A program made the translations under genes and the position numbers. Shown one piece after another: positions 36,404 to 46,203 of a DNA stretch of 64,000 nucleotides; positions within the stretch are counted from its first letter, which is position 1, and each line of letters opens with the position of its first letter. The notes below the pieces were generated by a model that saw nothing but the letters and a program-made list of their open reading frames with translations, did no database searches and was not told the origin of the DNA. This stretch comes from Polyporus tsugae (lineage: Eukaryota; Basidiomycota; Agaricomycetes; Polyporales; Polyporaceae), in contig JAHRBS010000011.1 of the NCBI GenBank assembly GCA_024305745.1, positions 620,001 through 684,000 on the forward strand, given 5' to 3'.

Positions 36404-37199
36404 TCACATAGTGTGAGTCTCCGGGGCGAACTCGCGTTGGACTTGCTCTACCCCTTCACGGCTTGATTGGATACTTGGATCCTGGGCATCTGGGAGATGT
36501 GTTGAGGTAGTAGGCTGGGGCGACAAGGGAAGGACAGGAGCGGGAGGGATGTCGACAGACGCAGTAGGCGGGCTTGTGATAGCGGAGACAGAGTCCATAC
36601 CGGTGCCACCATGGTCTGCGAGGTCTTGAATGGTGAAAAGGATGACATTGGGGTCAAGCAAGGGGTGCGAGGCTGGATTGGAGGGGTCGATGGACACTGG
36701 CTGCGGAGAAGGGGATGAAGGTGTCGTGTGAGATGGTTGCGACTCGGAAGCCTGCTTAGGCGCCTTCGCACGAGGAGCTTCTGTCTCCGAGTCGGATGTT
36801 GTGCTGTCCGAGCGAGCGCGCTTGGTTCGCTCCTGTGCCGTCTGTCAGCTTAAGAGTGTTCGGTGCCCACATCAAACAGTCCGTCACCTTTTTGTTCAGG
36901 TGCGTGCCCGCGAAGCCCGAGTACGCATGTGTTATGAGCTCATTTATCTTCCATCGCCCACCCTCGCAGATGAGGAGGAATGGGAAATGGTCACCGAGGA
37001 CGTTGTGTATGTAGACACGAGCCTCGTGTCCGAGCTCGCGAGAGTGCGCCATTGCTTGTCCAGTCCACGCGAGCGAGTGGAAACACGATGTGAGGATCTC
37101 ACGTATAGAATGGGCGACATACCCTGGGATAATGTTTCCGGTTTCGTCCTCAACCCACAATTGCCGCGTGAATGTCGGTTTTCCAGTGTGGTTTGCCCA
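36404..37199 (-). CDS. KDZ-linked gene with WxED...PGYVA domain
   Basis: Exons 37199-36888 (104 codons) and 36841-36404, joined in phase 0. The N-terminal domain has WVEDETGNIIPGYVAHSIRE and a downstream GDHFPFLLICEGGRWK segment, a pattern I associate with a common agaricomycete family. The next part has a basic cluster (ERTKRARSDS) likely to be a nuclear signal, then a Ser/Pro-rich disordered tail. The true first exon was not found: 37199 begins after a splice acceptor. It is divergent from the KDZ transposase with a 280-bp shared upstream region. Function unknown. Confidence 0.55.
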
Positions 37200-37478
37200 C
37201 TATGGATCGTGCGTGGTGTGGTGTGGTGGGCGTCTAAAAATTGACTTTTGCCGGCCTTCAAGCGGGTTTTTCGTTTTTTTTTTTGCGGGGAACTTTTTTT
37301 TCTAAAGCGCCGAAAAAGGAGTTTTGCCGAGTTTCCGCTTCAGCTCGCTTCCTCCTCTGCTTCGTCTATCCTGTGGCTGTCGTTCGACCGCGTCGAAGTC
37401 CACCGGCCTATACAGGCATGCCTGCTCCTGCCCCCTTCATCTACCACCCCCGCCTTACCCGACCCCGCTATTCCCTCC

Positions 37479-39640
37479 ATGTCTGACTCTGTCGCATCTG
37501 TCTTCGGCCACTTGATCAATTCCCATCCAACCCTTGCGCGTGCACTGTCGTTCCGTTCCCTCGTTCTCTATATCGACCTCATCGCATACTTAAAGCCCTC
37601 CCTCTTGTGGTCTCAGTCCCCTTACAACTTTTCGCCGCCATCTGCCTTACCCGACAACCTGCAAGCCTTCCTTTCCGCTACCCTCGACATACCTCTCCCG
37701 CTATGTGCGGAACTCTGGACCCTCCTTCGCGATGCTTTGTGGACGATGCCGCCCTTCGACCATCGGCTGTCAGGTACGATGGTGGATGTTCTACTCGAGC
37801 ATGGGGTTCAGCATAGTATCGGTGCGTCGTCGTAGGTCGGAGTGTTTTCGCCCTTGAGCTAACCTTCAACACTAGGCGTCTACAACTTCTATCCTCCCAC
37901 TCGGAACTGCCTTCACGAGGGGTGCAAGTACATCCGTCGTCATGGCGGTGATCAGCGTGCTCTGGAGGAGCCAATCACGACCAATGTCGTTTATTTCTCC
38001 CGAGAGCATGGCCCACTCCCATCGGTATGTCACTCCATGCGCTGTCCGAGTAAGTCTTTGTCGTTTTGGATCTTCCTTTATTCATACTGACCGACGAACA
38101 TCGCTTCAGGGTGCCACACCCGCTACTACCCCAATTACTACATTAAGAGTGCCAGTGATACACGTACATACTACGACGGGCCCCTCCCAGACTCATGCTG
38201 CCACGCACGTCTTTGTCGATGTCGCGCTGTGCGATCGCTTCACGAACTCGACTGCTTGTGCTTGGTATGTCGACCATTTTCTCAGTCTGCTTATGCTCCA
38301 TACTGATCCTTTGCATAGGGTATCTTTCACGAACAATGCTCGGATCTACAACCTCGAGCATCGCACCGCCATCGACCGTTTCCCTTCGGGGTGGTCGGTC
38401 ATCCCTGAGCTTTCTGCCACCCTTGTCTCTGACTTGTTCTTCCTTTATGGGCTTCTCCGCGACCGCGCCCGCGTGCCTCGACACTTGTTCTTTCCAACTC
38501 AGGCGACCAGTCTGCACGTCTCGATCCGCAGTTGCGCGCCCGCACCGCCGCGTTTATCAGGCCGGCACGCGATGGGTGGAATCATATGTGCGACAAATGC
38601 TGTTCGGTGAAGAAAGATGGCGACAACCACTGTAAGTGCATTGTCACCTGTATTTGTTTGCATAACTTTACTTATTCTAGTACATAGACGTGATGCGTGC
38701 CGTTGTGATGGATGGCATCACCATCGGTCGTCCTTGCTGCGGGGTCCATGACTGCAAGGAGCCTCTCCCATCTCAGCGTGCACGGTATTGTCTGAACCAT
38801 TCCCACCTGGATACATTCTGTGTTGTCGTTGGCTGCACAGCGCACGCTGAGCCCGGGTTTCAGACATGCTCGGAGCTGAGCCATCGGGCCCTGGAGGATA
38901 CTAGTGGACGCTCGGCCCTCTTTGTTCTCCGCCGGCGATTAGAGCGCTTACGTGCACCAGCGGTGGAGGATGATGGCAGTGGTACGACCGGCGAGCTTAT
39001 CGATGTCGACCCTGGAGAGTGTCCATCCAAGCCCGGCAGTGGTAACACCAAGCCCCGTGCCCGCTTTGGTCGTCGTCGCACCCACAACGAGCAGCTCATT
39101 GTTGCCACATGTGGTACAATCTTGGCCCGTGCGACGCTGTTCGGCTCAGAGGGTGTTGATGGTACAAGAGTATGTGTTCTGCTTGGTGCTGTACTGTACA
39201 TATTGTAATGATGTTTATCTTTTCCAACTGAGGATTCACTTCCTGAAGTGATCTTTTTCGACAATGCTTGTCGCTTGAAGCAGCACCTCATCTCCATGGG
39301 CGACCATTACTTCGACAAGTGTGCCATGCCTGTCGATCCATTCCATGCGAAGACAAAGCACAAGGAATCGGACACATTCTGTGGTATGCATTGCAATGCA
39401 GTGCTATTCCCTGACCTGCTAGATGGTGGTCGATGGCGGTTCAACTCGTCTGCTGCAGAGATGACAAATGCCTGGGTTGGTGGCTTTCAGGCGATGGTTA
39501 GGGAGATGCGTGAGGCGTGTTATGACTTCTTCCTCGATGAAGTCTTCAGGATCCGAAACCTCATGATCGCTGATGACTTGGAGAAGGCTGGGGCGCATCC
39601 TCAATTAGTGGCACGCGAGCTGCTTTTGCATAGGACATAA
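37479..39640 (+). pseudogene. KDZ transposase with CxC5-like cluster, frameshifted
   Basis: Exons 37479-37821, 37876-38049, 38110-38264, 38319-38631, 38688-39169 and 39233-39640, with consistent GT-AG sites. Order: helical N-terminus (LARALSFRSLVLYIDL), the CxC5-type zinc region (NCLHEGCKY, CHSMRCPRC with HTRYY), a helical middle, CDKC, VMDGITIGRPCCGVHDC, a second Cys-rich block, and the transposase core with VIFFDNACRLK and PVDPFHAKTKHKESDTFC, then RWRFNSSAAEM. This matches Kyakuja-Dileera-Zisupton elements. Two single-base shifts (near 38195 and 38502) break the frame, so this copy is probably inactive. Confidence 0.78.
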
Positions 39641-39704
39641 TATGTTGTGATCTTTGTCTTTTGCCAATATATCATTTGTCCACTTGGGTGTCTCATAGTA
39701 CAAG

Positions 39705-41113
39705 TTATGATCCTGAGTCCTCAACTATGCCTCTAACCATCTCCTCAACAAACATCTCAGCTGCAGCTTTGGCAGCCTTGTCCGCATCAGTCCAGTGCTT
39801 GCTAAATGGAACAGGTTTTGCTAGTGGATCCAAAGGTGGAAGTGAGTCTGCATAGCGTTGATATACAGTGTTGAGTCGGGGAGGAGTGACAAATGCGATG
39901 CCGAGTTGTTGGAATGCAGGGGATGTGTCATAGGGAGAGTAGTTTGCCAGACTTGTTCCATGAATGTCAGTGGGACGCCACACGATAAGTGTATCTGGGG
40001 CAAGGACGACCTTGACACCATACGAGGCAATATAGAAATGACCGCCTTGGTCTGCTGCATGCGAACGGCCAAGAATCCATTGAGCAGAGTAGGGGTGGGG
40101 TTGGTACTCAAAATGCATGGCCCTATATTAGTATGCCCTTAAGTACATAGTGCATTTTGCTTTAGGATGAATTATACAAACCTTGCATAATTCTGGTTCA
40201 GGAGTCCAGTTGGGGGTGCAAGCTCAGCTTTGTGAAAGGTAGTCGTATATTCACCGATGTGGATGTGGTAATCGCCGTGGTCGCCAGTAATACGAACTCC
40301 TGCATCCATGCGAGGCAGCTTGGAACTTTCAAGCCATTCAACCCATCCATCCATAATCTCCCTTGGTAGTTGAGCACGGCAAATGTTCCAGCCAAGAGCA
40401 AAAAGGCAGCTTGTTTGATAGTCAGCAGGGGCAAGAAATTCGGGTGTTAACTCATTCTTGCGCTCCAGGTTGCGAACCCAGTCAAATGCCGGTTTTGAGC
40501 GGGCTCCAGCAGAATACCCCGTCTGTATCATCTTTCCTGGATCTTCACGCTAGTGGTGGTGGTTGGGAGGCATTCAATATTAGCATGATTGGACATATTT
40601 ATTGTGCTTACTCTGATTGAACGCCGACCAGTGATTCCGTTCTGTACTGTCTCCACTGCCCATGATAAGAACTCCGTCTGCAACTGATCGTCTTCCTCCA
40701 AGATGCCCCGGAGCACAACTGCGATGATTGAACCATCGTGGTTATCTACGATGGCACAGCTCTCGTTGGAAGGCACTTCGAGCTGGAGCGCATTGGCATC
40801 GAGAGGATGGATTGGACGTCGTGCTTGCCGTGGATCTGGCTGGGGATCTCTAAGTAGACGCTGCTCCCACTTCGCCCACCAGTCCCCTCGTGCTTCTGTC
40901 CCGCCTCCCTGTCAGCGTTGAGCATGACCTCGCGATTAGCGCTAATGCTCCTTACACTACCACGTCTTCGTCCTCAAACGAGTCCTCAAACCTCGCCGAA
41001 GTCAAAGCCTCCGTCAGCTTTGACATCTGTAATGACGTCGCCGCGAATTCCTCACACTCCAGTCCCACACCCGCCATGCTCACCTCAAACTGTCCCGCTG
41101 CACTGAGGTCCAT
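39705..41113 (-). CDS. TET/JBP-like 2OG-Fe(II) dioxygenase (411 aa)
   Basis: Exons 41113-40961, 40908-40612, 40549-40182 and 40122-39705: 1236 nt, all phases agree. Middle: VPSNESCAIVDNHDGSIIAV and HYHIH-like HGDYHIHIGEY. The C-terminal half looks like a double-stranded beta-helix: HFE at His276-Glu278, GGHFYIASYGVKV, then a distal histidine in TDIHGTS (His327). TET/JBP enzymes oxidise 5-methylcytosine or thymine using Fe(II) and 2-oxoglutarate. Here the second metal ligand would be Glu rather than Asp. No stop or frameshift. Convergent with the KDZ transposase, 64 bp apart. Family call rests on motif order and context. Confidence 0.62.
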
Positions 41114-41752
41114 GCCCCTCACGCGGTAGCACGTCGCCTTCTTCGACTAGATGGAGTGCGCCGCCCCTCGCCTTCGCGCATCCCGATTACAACCCCTTCC
41201 CGTGTCGGCCGCCTCAATATCAAGGCCTTCAATATGGTTCCCCGCACCAGGATCATCGTGACTAAGGTCTCGTTGGGGCGATATGAACACGCCGTCGCGG
41301 GCGAAAGCAACCAACTCGCCCACATCTCACACCCTCCCGTAGACACCCTCTTTGCGACCTCCGCGTTTGCCCAACTCATCCTCCCTACCGATGCCGAGGG
41401 TGACAAACCGCACCACGGCCACGGCACCGGACGTCGCCTCTGCCAGTCCGTGCGTGCCAGGCCAGACCTCCAATGCTCTCCACGGCTGTTTCGGTTCGGA
41501 GCCAGCTACCATCGTCTTTCGCAGTTCTCGAGGAGCGACGCCTTGTGTTCGGCGCGAACGTCCTCAGGCTCCCGGCTCGGGAGACGAAGTCGCTGCTGCG
41601 GCTCATGCGGCCCCCGTCCCTACTTCTCCACCCTCTCTATCCTCCCATTCTGCTGACGACGGGTAAGTCTCCAATTCTGACGCGTTCTCTCGACGCTCTC
41701 TCTGACACTCAACCACAGCTTTCCCCATGACAATCGCCGCATCCCTGCGATA
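41114..41752. repeat. Degenerate block related to 46054-46200
   Basis: 41333-41465 and 46054-46200 share CTCCCGTAGACACCCTCT, TTTGCCCAACTCATCCTCC-like and CCTCTGCCAGTCC(G/A)TGCGTGCCA, about 75-80% alike by eye. What it encoded is unclear. Confidence 0.6.
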
Positions 41753-42016
41753 GAGTCCTCCTCTCCAGACACAATGTCAAGTGCGGTGAGTCCGAGTCCG
41801 GCGCCATCAGTGAGTCCGACGCGATCAAGAAGGTCTCGTACCTCAAGTCTCGAACACCAGACCGCGCTCCTTAAGTTTGCAGAGGAGAACAGATGGGCCG
41901 AATACACGCAGTGAGGATACGCGCGAGTCCGCCGTCAACATCCAGATGGTTCCCTTCTCGAGCGAGCACAAGGTGATAGGCGTTGTCGTCCAGGTCAACG
42001 ATCGCCACGTTTAACA
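41753..42016 (+). pseudogene. Ca2+-ATPase nucleotide-domain fragment, copy 1
   Basis: Frames give TALLKFAEENRWAEYTQ, a stop, then SAVNIQMVPFSSEHKVIGVV. This is the N-domain segment of plasma-membrane-type Ca2+ pumps (consensus around ALLKFAKDNGW and MIPFSSERK). A second copy is at 45880-46020. Too short and broken to function. Confidence 0.7.
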
Positions 42017-42112
42017 TCGGATCACAGGATCACCGTCCACTTGGGATGACGCAGCTTGTAGAACCCCCTCCCATTCCCTTTCCTCCCCTCCATCTTTTTC
42101 TTTCTCTCCGCC

Positions 42113-42900
42113 ATGGCTCGTCTCGAGCTCCCTGCCTCCCTTCTCCTCCTCACACCGGCGTGTGACGACAGGGCCCCCGCAGGTGTAGAAGAAGGCTCGG
42201 AATCCTTAGGCTTCACCATCGTCGACACTTTTGAAGCCGTCCACACCAAATCCGGAGAGTTGAAGGACGCCCGGTACTCGATCGGCGTGTCGGAGCTCCT
42301 CCGTGAGGGCAACACCAGGGTGTACAGGGGTACACTGGCCGTCGACGGGCGCCAGCACCTCAACGCGGACGTCGTTTGCAAGCTTCCACGCGGCAGGAGC
42401 TCCGTCGAGGCGCTGCACCGAGAAGCGGACCTCTACAGAGGCAAGCTCGCACCTTTGCAAGGACGCTACGTCCCGACGTTCGTCGGCCTGGGTGATGGGG
42501 AGACGGAGGGCGCCTCACGTACGTGGGCATCGTGATGCAGCAGTCGTTGTACACATCCACGATCGACTTCAGGTGTGTGCCCGGCCCACATCCTCGTCTT
42601 GTCCTCCCGGCGCGAACTTCTTCCATCCCAGGAAAAAGGTTGTGAACGCGCTCCTGGCGGTCCACAAGGTGGGGGTGCACCTCGGCGCGTTCAACGAGGC
42701 GCATATCGTCGTCCGGGACGGCGACAACGCGCCGCTGCTCGTCGGCGTCGGCAGCGCGGACGAGCACGCGTGCCACTTAAGCGCACCCATCGAGTTCTAC
42801 GCGCCCCCGCGGCCATCGGGTGCGAGGGGGTCTACTGGGCGTGTGTCGTCGGTTTTGCTTTGCCTCCTGCGCGGCTGTACAGCTACTGTTTCTGAACACG
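42113..42900 (+). pseudogene. Protein-kinase-like relic
   Basis: From ATG 42113: ELLREGNTRVYRGTL (glycine-loop-like), VVCKLPRG (VAIK-lysine-like), EALHREADLYRGKLAPLQG (helix C), then a frame change near 42510, YVGIVMQQS, an intron (42574-42631), VNALLAVHKVGVHLGAFNEAHIVV. The last segment aligns with the kinase catalytic loop (HGDF..N), but the catalytic Asp is missing. Common agaricomycete kinase-like family. Non-catalytic and frameshifted. Confidence 0.5.
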
Positions 42901-42954
42901 GCCATTCCGATCGAATGGGCGCTGGAAGGCTCCGACGAGCTCGGACCAACGGCA

Positions 42955-45050
42955 CTGGGACGGTCGAGATCGACGAGTTCGCGCGCGGTACCATCCAGCA
43001 GACGGTCATCTTCTACGCTAACCAGATCCTCCGGACGATTGCTGTGTGTTATCGCGACTTTGAGTCCTGGCCGCCGCAGGGCGTGCACGCAGAGTCCATC
43101 GATGAGGTGCGTACGTTGCTGATCGTCTGTTTGGGATGCTACTTAAACGCGTTGCAGGTTCCTTACGAGGCGTTCTCCCAAGACCTCACACTCACCGCCA
43201 CCACCGGCATCGAGGATCCCCTCTGTCCCGGTGTTCGAGAAGCCGTTGCGGACTGCACGAGGGCTGGCGTCTCGGTCAAGATGTGCACTGGCGACAACGT
43301 CCTCACCGCCCGTTCGATCGCGTTGCAGTGTGGGATCTACAGCGCTAGCGGCATGATTATGGAAGGTCCCATCTTCCGACAGCTCGACAGGCAAGATTTG
43401 CTCGACGTTGTCCCTCGGCTCCAGGTGCTCGCGCGTTCGTCTCCGGAGGACAAGAAGCTCCTCGTCGACACTCTTCGCGACCTTGGGGAGATCGTCGGCA
43501 TCACCGGCGATGGGACGAACGACGGCCCCGCTCTCAAGACTGCTCACGTCGGTTTCTCGATGGGCATTGCTGGTACCGAGGTGGCGAAGGAGGCTTCCCA
43601 CATCATCCTTATGGACGACAACTTCGCATCCATCGTTGAAGCGATAATGTGGGGTCGGTGCGTCAACGATGCTGTTCGAAAGTTCCTCCAGTTCCAGATC
43701 TCGACCAACATTACTGCTGTCATCATCACCTCCGTCTCTGCTGTCGCTTCCACCCAGGAGTCTGTCCTCTCTGCGGTGCAGCTGCTTTGGATCAACATCA
43801 TCATGGACACGTCCGCAGCTCTTGCGCTGGCGACGGACCCGGCGAGCCCTTCCCTACTCCACCGCAAGCCGGACAAGAAGACCGCGCCGCTGTTCTCTGT
43901 CGATATGTACAAGCAGATTCTTGGACAGTCCACTTACCAGACCCTCATTACCCGAATTTTCCACTTCCTCGGCGCTCGTATTCTGGGCCAACAACACTCC
44001 GGCGGCACCACCATACAGAAGCACAACGACCTGGTAGTACAGATCTTGGTGTTCAACTTGTTCGTCTTCGCTCAGATTTTCCTCAACTCTATCAATTCTC
44101 GCCGGCTCGATAATCGCCTTATTGGTTTCGAAGGCACCACCCGCAACTATTACTTCATGGGTATCACTCTCCCCGGTACGTAGGACCGAATTGTCCGTTG
44201 CTGACCCCCTTGCTGACGTCTTTCCAGAGGTCGCAGTACAGATCCTGGTCCGTCGGCGCCGCCGCATTCTAGGTGACTCCTACCAGTGGGGTATCGCCAC
44301 CGCGCCCGGTGTCGTATCCCTTCCGCTCGGCGGGCTCCTCCGCTGCATTCCCAACGCGCCTCTCGAGCGGTTCTTCATGAAGGTCGGGCTCATGCCTAAC
44401 CCGAACGTCCTGCCGACCGTTCAGCCAGAGGCGGAATGGAATTCTGCGATCCAACTCGTCCGTGACAACCTCAACACGTACTCAGATGTTCGCGGTGCCC
44501 GTATGCGACCGTTGTCGTACGTGGGCACTGCACCACAATCGCCTACCGGCTCGGCGAGCATCAGCCATAACCGCCAGCTCGGTCGGTACCCATTGCAAGT
44601 TGGACATCTTGCGCTGGCTGTGCGTGGCGCGTTTCCCGCCCCCACGGCACCATCCCCGCCAACCTACATGTTTGCGAAAGGCTACGCGCAGCCGTTCCCG
44701 CGCCGCAGCTCGCCGGTTTCGGCCTGTTTTCGCGCCCACCTGCGAGCTTGCCCGACTTCGACGTGCCCCCCTTCCTCATAGACCGTTCGGATCGTCATGA
44801 AACCTCGGACACCGCCTCTCGAGCATCTGGACTCGAAGCGCACGAAGTTACGTCGGCCCCGCACCAGCTGTTCGCGCCTGGCAGTGTCCGCAATCCCACG
44901 CCTCTCCGCAGTCAGACCATGCACTTCCGCATGCCGTCCAGCCACTGTTTCTCCCGAGAACCGCGCGCGGTTGGTCGACTTGTCATTCGGGGTCACGTCG
45001 CCCATCGTGCAAAGTTCCAAACCCGTCCGCTACCGCTTTCTCGTTGAGCG
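42955..45050 (+). pseudogene. Ca2+-ATPase (PMCA type), C-terminal half
   Basis: Continuous frame with IFYANQILRTIAVCYRDF, then MCTGDNVLTARSIA, VGITGDGTNDGPAL hinge motif, QLLWINIIMDT (M6 region) and the later membrane segments, then the VLPTVQPEAEW tail. A 51-nt GT-AG intron (43107-43157) lies in frame and a second at 44176-44227, so this is a DNA-level copy, not a retrocopy. The phosphorylation site and the whole N-terminal half are absent here, and frame slips occur after 44228. It cannot be a functional pump. Confidence 0.85.
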
Positions 45051-45602
45051 GCCGCTCGAAGTTCCATTCCTCGCGTGCGATTCAAGTTTGGAGTAGAGGT
45101 GTTGCAGGGAGCTCAATTGTGGTCGGTCCGGCTGATAATTTGGTGCGCACGTTCCTTGTACCGTTATCTTGCGTCCCCCGGGCTTGCAACTGCTCCGTCT
45201 CCGTCATTTCCGGCTGCTCGCTCCTGCACTTCCGGTCCCACGCACTCCCAACCTCTCAATATCCGCACGTTCCCCTGGTCCTGTTGCCCTTCGTGCTGCC
45301 GCAGCTCATCACCGTCTCAACACGAACAAGGCTACTGCTGGCCACCGCAAGGTCCTCCAGGAGAAAGAGGAGCACTGCGTCGGCGACAGGATTGAGTTCC
45401 GGCGTAACTAAAGGTTTGCCTCACTTTTACCTACCTGGTCTAGGCTGCATTCCCACACCCGACAACAGCGGCAGGCTGCAGCTACCGCCATTGGTATGGA
45501 TCCTTCGGATGTCGGATATGTTATTGGTCGGTCACGTCGCTACCGTGGACTGTCAGAAGGTTTGTCACCCCACCCAGGCTGCGTGAGTATAGTGTTATAC
45601 TA

Positions 45603-46030
45603 ATGTTTTCCCTCTCAGGTTCGCCGCTCGCGGTGGTGCTGGCCCTCGTATTTGCAACCAAGCATATGACAAAAGAGAACCTTCTCGTCCGCATGCTCAG
45701 TTCCTTTGAGACCATGGCCAACGCATCCGTCGTCTGCACGGACACGACCGGCACGCTTACGGAGAATACCATGACCGTCGGCAGCGGGATCCACTGCAAA
45801 TTTACCATCGTAAGGACAACAAGGCGCATACGAACATGGATGAGCCGCTGATGCTTATGACTTCTCGATCGACCAGGAACAGATCAACGATACCCTTTCG
45901 GCGCCCGCGATCCGAAACCGCGCTCCTCAAGTTCGCGAAGGACAACGGTTGGGCCGAGTACAAGGAGCCGTGCGACTCCGCCGACATCGTCCAGATGATT
46001 CTCTTCTTGAGCAAGCGCCACTCGGAGCGA
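45603..46030 (+). pseudogene. Ca2+-ATPase phosphorylation/N-domain fragment, copy 2
   Basis: Encodes ATKHMTKENLLVRMLSSFET, then CTDTTGTLTEN and further on TALLKFAKDNGWAEYKEP and SADIVQM. This is the segment that normally precedes the 42955-45050 part, but it lies downstream of it. The invariant DKTGT motif reads DTTGT (Lys to Thr), which would abolish or greatly reduce activity. Confidence 0.8.
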
Positions 46031-46203
46031 CCAACGTGTCGACGCCTTCCATCCTCCCGTAGACACCCTCTCTGCAGCCTCTGCGTGTGCCCAACTCATC
46101 CTCCCCTCCCAGAATGCCAATGGCGGCAAACTGCACAACACCAGAGGCACTGGATACCACCTCTGCCAGTCCATGCGTGCCAATGCCCTTGGTCACCGTC
46201 ATT

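Follow-up and report, generated by a model that had tools for sequence, protein, structure and literature searches.

Did a transposon of the polypore Polyporus tsugae carry its own base-modifying enzyme, and what is left of it? The question is raised by two convergent genes at 37.4-40.9 kb of a 64,000-nucleotide stretch (the window, C14:620001-684000, C14 being the window's contig) of a genome of 43.2 Mb in 18 contigs. One gene resembles a transposase with CxC5 and CxC6 cysteine clusters, the other a dioxygenase of the TET/JBP kind. The initial annotation of this DNA described a mobile cassette of three genes. We consider it probable that the window holds a decayed two-gene transposon module, made up of a CxC5-CxC6 KDZ-associated transposase of the Asp-Asp-Glu (DDE) type and a convergent His-x-Glu (HxE, 'PE-type') TET/JBP-like Fe(II)/2-oxoglutarate dioxygenase. 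This reading draws on observed domains, motif conservation, a repeated pair, truncation, decay and a shared flank, and on the predicted folds of homologues. The gene pair itself is real, and it stands above chance because it recurs on C14 and its motifs recur in homologues of other species. Its features are these:

37479..39640, plus strand: CxC5-CxC6 (KDZ-associated) transposase gene, broken (exon model, Pfam, alignment)
37479-37821, 37876-38049, 38110-38264, 38319-38631, 38688-39169 and 39233-39640, plus strand: apparent exons of the transposase gene (exon model)
38705..38899, plus strand: CxC6 cysteine cluster, 98.9 bits, lying between the two proposed catalytic Asp residues
38711..38713, plus strand: first proposed catalytic Asp (VMDG), D341 of homologue P0044, conserved in at least 90% of 43
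39260..39262, plus strand: second proposed catalytic Asp (FFDNAC), D523 of P0044, conserved in at least 90% of 43
39458..39460, plus strand: proposed catalytic Glu (SAAEMTNAW), E589 of P0044, conserved in at least 90% of 43
39705..40870, minus strand: HxE TET/JBP-like dioxygenase gene, 5'-truncated, in exon parts 40870-40612, 40549-40182 and 40122-39705
40107..40115, minus strand: H-F-E, proposed Fe(II)-binding HxE (H276 and E278 of the 411-amino-acid model; invariant, 18/18)
39960..39962, minus strand: distal His (DIHGTS), H327 of the 411-amino-acid model, conserved in at least 90% of 18

The transposase gene is recognised by its cysteines. In Pfam the window gene matches CxC6 at 7.6e-28 and CxC5 weakly, at 0.0017, which is under the cut-off for that family. 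We found 69 homologues; in a set of 43, the CxC5 and CxC6 clusters were matched in 43/43 and 41/43, respectively. The plus-strand KDZ-type transposase of the initial annotation is therefore upheld in its CxC6 part and weakly in its CxC5 part. It is not an intact gene: the exon model needs two or more frame breaks, near 38.19 and 38.47 kb, and the splice acceptor before the exon at 39233 has apparently been lost. An RNase H-like DDE core is predicted in the intact homologue P0044, with D341 falling within a strand of the model; the window gene would thus be DDE transposase-like, and the equivalents of D341, D523 and E589 its presumed catalytic residues. With a transposase exon as the query, the longer matches outside the cassettes were no more than 49% identical. 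As a separate observation, the genome has four KDZ (PF18758) matches of equal score, 74.4 bits (C3:1236075, C3:2307711, C5:1033470 and C5:1861396). There are stops upstream of these, which may be introns, and the four loci are possibly an ordinary KDZ family that was recently active.

The second gene of the pair, a convergent minus-strand gene with HFE, GGHFY and DIHGTS motifs, is present as annotated. It runs tail to tail with the transposase gene, and the stop-to-stop spacer (39641-39704) is 64 bp as first stated. The HxE motif is found in 31/31 homologues that gave a motif match (42 were scanned); the HxD motif of AG-type enzymes such as CcTET was not found in them. The closest homologue, from Ganoderma leucocontextum, is 72% identical over 84% of the query. 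What kind of enzyme is this? The model of homologue P0001 (72% identical over 84% of the window model) has a double-stranded beta-helix fold nearest to TET/JBP enzymes, TET2, CMD1, NgTET and CcTET being the most similar. The gene at 39.7-40.9 kb is thereby supported as TET/JBP-like, as the initial annotation had proposed, by the predicted fold of a homologue. Sequence searches were silent on this point, the gene's family being a Pfam-less one. No TET family was matched in 21 dioxygenase homologues (Pfam), a sequence profile search against the PDB returned chance matches only, and viral contigs gave no match.

The 411-amino-acid protein as first drawn does not stand. Homology between the window and the intact copy described below halts at 40870, and of the 237 residues in exon 1 of that copy only 150-237 align to the window. 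About 150 codons are missing from the start of the window dioxygenase, and the 411-amino-acid model is for that reason a chimera with flanking DNA. Its proposed first exon (41113-40961) is the ATPase-side flank and was rejected as dioxygenase sequence.

Is the pair found elsewhere in the genome? C14 holds all three places where the C-terminal exon of the dioxygenase was found (in the window, at 342736-343146 and at 404720-405130), and each time a CxC6 gene is convergent with it. The last two places lie within an inverted duplication, C14:336293-350400 and 397466-411571 (L023-L026), which is 99.94% identical over at least 14.1 kb; the copies at 342736 and 404720 therefore count as one. The duplication midpoint (C14:373300-374600) showed no inverted repeat reaching 20 nt, and the duplication is either real or an assembly effect. 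In the duplicated copy the dioxygenase is open for 498 amino acids under inferred splicing, and the transposase is broken, with a stop and frame breaks. The two-gene order thus recurs in the C14 copies; the three genes of the initial annotation were found together nowhere else in the genome, an outcome that the annotation itself had named as refuting it.

The sequences beyond the dioxygenase bear on how these copies arose:

40873..41475: flank from the ATPase side, joined to the truncated dioxygenase and including exon 41113-40961 of the 411-amino-acid model; 84% identical to C14:306881-307470 (L051 1501-2090)
41460..46197, plus strand: partial, rearranged Ca2+-ATPase copy with changed block order, a shared flank outside the cassette (sequence comparison)

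A third locus, C14:306356-306442 (L051), holds a dioxygenase remnant of about the first 29 codons with its upstream region, at 71-72% identity, followed by ATPase sequence. This third locus has the ATPase side in common with the window and the duplicate pair, and since the copies share it they are best read as the product of segmental duplication. For the same reason the ends of the element cannot be fixed by comparing copies. On the left, the window ceases to match the second copy at 37447, ~32 bp before the ATG; the corresponding limit in the second copy is L023 5005, adjoining the end (4995) of a RhoGEF-like match. The limit at 37447 might be an element end but, given that the copies have the right flank in common, is just as likely to be the break of a rearrangement.

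How might the intact element have worked? The transposase would have moved the element. The dioxygenase may have oxidised methylated bases on its own element, most likely 5-methylcytosine (5mC), and such oxidation would have countered silencing. What we infer from the module is that it once transposed, that its enzyme was catalytically active on such a substrate and that the element gained from this.

Transposons of the KDZ class that carry TET genes (TET+ KDZ transposons: Kyakuja, Dileera, Zisupton) were reportedly described by Iyer in 2014. Like the window, they have a transposase gene and a TET/JBP-like gene adjacent to each other in Agaricomycetes. The window pair differs in having no PF18758 match, in having no recognised termini and in being decayed, and its dioxygenase is of the HxE type whereas that of Kyakuja is of the AG type. 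The closer likeness is to the PE-type TET/JBP enzymes, of which HxE in place of HxD is the hallmark (PMC12730594). Compared by published description, these share with the window gene the HxE, the distal His and a fold nearest to CMD1, NgTET, CcTET and TET2; CcTET, of the AG type, has HxD (PMC12730594) where the window dioxygenase has HxE. In sequence, both the PE-type enzymes and the window family resemble classical TET families only remotely, and both occur in Pezizomycetes and Agaricomycetes, a homologue of the window gene (P0030) coming from Tuber borchii. PE-type genes have been placed in Zisupton, IS3EU, EnSpm, Plavaka and Helitron elements of Pezizomycetes and Agaricales (PMC12730594). 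From Polyporales and Boletales, Kojima 2025 characterised TET+ Kyakuja only, and notes that a link between Plavaka and TET had previously been implied for two polypores (PMC12730594). In contrast to the PE-type elements of that study, the window has its HxE gene in a polypore, beside a CxC5-CxC6 transposase.

What is new here? The association of TET genes with transposons is already known, and the window is a damaged instance of it with an unusual enzyme type. In PMC12730594, TET+ Kyakuja are the only elements characterised from Polyporales, so the known association is extended by the pairing of an HxE enzyme with a CxC5-CxC6 transposase. The HxE type is without report for Polyporales in PMC12730594 and in the available passages of PMC7641404. 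Among the papers that literature searches listed, with subscription papers outside their scope, no title or opening of an abstract indicated a CxC5-CxC6 gene with an HxE enzyme next to it. TET-like genes on transposons are regarded as a candidate anti-silencing device whose function there lacks experimental validation (PMC12730594, section 4.2). The window contributes a polypore case in which the HxE enzyme is partnered by a different kind of transposase.

The partner has its own precedent. In Pleurotus ostreatus, the passages of PMC7641404 available describe CxC5/CxC6 inserts with an open reading frame of 660-739 amino acids, in high copy number and with inverted duplicates nearby; the window case resembles them in its CxC5/CxC6 reading frame, in copy number and in having inverted duplicate copies nearby. 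No dioxygenase is mentioned in those passages, whereas the window pair includes one. They report no KDZ-type transposon at the inserts and suggest the involvement of Copia. The predicted model suggests that the CxC5-CxC6 reading frame may itself encode a DDE transposase, though PMC7641404, as far as its available passages go, did not count such frames as KDZ transposons. The DDE-like model of these proteins therefore bears on a question that the Pleurotus sporeless work, in those passages, left open (PMC7641404).

Several results weigh against the window being a decayed two-gene transposon module. The evidence for pairing comes from one genome, and in that genome 0/8 of the other CxC6 loci have the dioxygenase (~10 kb was examined at each; the genome-wide counts of CxC6 and dioxygenase loci are lower bounds). 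Terminal repeats and a target-site duplication were sought and none were recognised: such matches as occurred within loci were weak and scattered, and comparison across copies gave none. No copy shows transposition, since the ATPase-side flank is common to the copies. With both genes broken as well, the presently mobile unit of the initial annotation is not borne out. The KDZ catalytic domain PF18758 had no match in the window genes, in either the genome profile search or the per-exon Pfam search, and is in no member of the transposase homologue alignment (A4). Foldseek alone gave the transposase homologue model no match at E<=0.001 and ranked an unrelated protein first. The profile test proposed for the 411-amino-acid protein returned 0 Pfam families at E<=10, Tet_JBP (PF12851) and 2OG-FeII_Oxy_6 (PF20515) included. 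Genome scans for classical TET families likewise left the window gene unmatched, and the scan controls also matched nowhere. CpG-biased transitions between copies are strong in the cassette, and we considered and rejected them as a mark of past methylation. A single flank block had suggested that the CpG difference was specific to the cassette; this was gone in a larger flank set, which shows the same excess (cassette versus flank z 1.39). Finally, selection was compared in one unpolarised pair, window versus intact copy, in which the NG86 rates of nonsynonymous (dN) and synonymous (dS) change were dN 0.0248, dS 0.231 and dN/dS 0.107 for the dioxygenase (348 codons) and dN 0.0546, dS 0.137 and dN/dS 0.40 for the transposase (236 codons, with stop codons excluded, from four segments chosen by hand as being in frame in both copies). 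YN00 gave dN/dS of 0.15 versus 0.48, and a Fisher test of synonymous and nonsynonymous counts p 0.0046. Excluding the damaged stretches should work to the transposase's advantage, and the comparison shows stronger purifying selection on the dioxygenase than on the decaying transposase. One genome offers an intact and a broken copy of an enzyme that is more constrained, in this comparison, than its decaying partner.

Could the enzyme do something else? It is possible, though not likely, that this oxygenase has the TET fold but a different substrate or reaction (RNA, thymine, 6-methyladenine, or a CMD1-like transfer to 5mC). This would alter one step of the two-gene module and otherwise overlaps with it. 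In its favour, CMD1 ranks with the nearest folds, the triad is HxE and so unlike HxD, and PMC12730594 also leaves other activities open. Against it, the 5mC enzymes TET2 and NgTET match the P0001 model as well as CMD1 does, or better, by VIA Z, with CcTET somewhat lower.

Is the dioxygenase transposon cargo at all? It is rather unlikely that it is not, or is no longer, cargo: a host or domesticated gene beside a dead transposase, the pair having been copied by segmental duplication. The shared ATPase flank implies one ancestral pairing only in the genome, the eight other CxC6 loci lack the enzyme, and the dioxygenase is under purifying selection next to a decaying transposase, one copy being open for 498 amino acids. 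Yet convergent genes 64 bp apart agree with the known TET-transposon association, PE-type enzymes are reported inside five transposon lineages (PMC12730594), and the window dioxygenase is itself truncated, with a third copy down to ~29 codons.

It is very improbable that three genes moved together with the left one as an accessory, as the close packing in 4.7 kb had suggested, for the left gene, itself a fragment, belongs to a family whose seven other loci all lie more than 10 kb from any CxC6 locus found, and it is unmatched at the other cassette copy, which has a RhoGEF-like gene there.

Beyond the two-gene module, we tentatively raise a wider view, which we think doubtful. CxC5-CxC6 proteins may be a separate, unrecognised DDE transposase lineage that acquired an HxE TET-type dioxygenase. 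The enzyme may then have outlived the transposase under selection, as a transposon demethylase heading to host use or to the service of other elements in trans.

The left neighbour lies outside the cassette:

36404..37160, minus strand: left neighbour fragment of a multicopy family with no significant Pfam match (open reading frames, family search)

The minus-strand reading frames of the initial annotation are present here and their place in the cassette is not supported. The gap to the transposase, first given as 280 bp, is ~318 bp from the end of the frame at 37160 to the ATG at 37479. Searching with the frame at 36756-37160 gave 8 more match rows, which make up 7 loci since two of the rows adjoin each other on C6. 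The locus nearest to a CxC6 locus is ~16.6 kb away from it on C3, and a full-length relative has a sub-threshold Pfam match only. There is no DNA match to the left gene at the second cassette copy. The RhoGEF-like gene fragment that forms the left flank there (L023 4000-4995) ends directly before the second transposase copy and has paralogues on C9 and C1; its assignment is weak (Pfam 0.032 on a 51-residue piece). On the other side, partial or rearranged copies of a plasma-membrane-type Ca2+-ATPase are found at window 41460-46197 and at C14:309741, 346443 and 400929, and a long open copy is on C15 (C15:598411).
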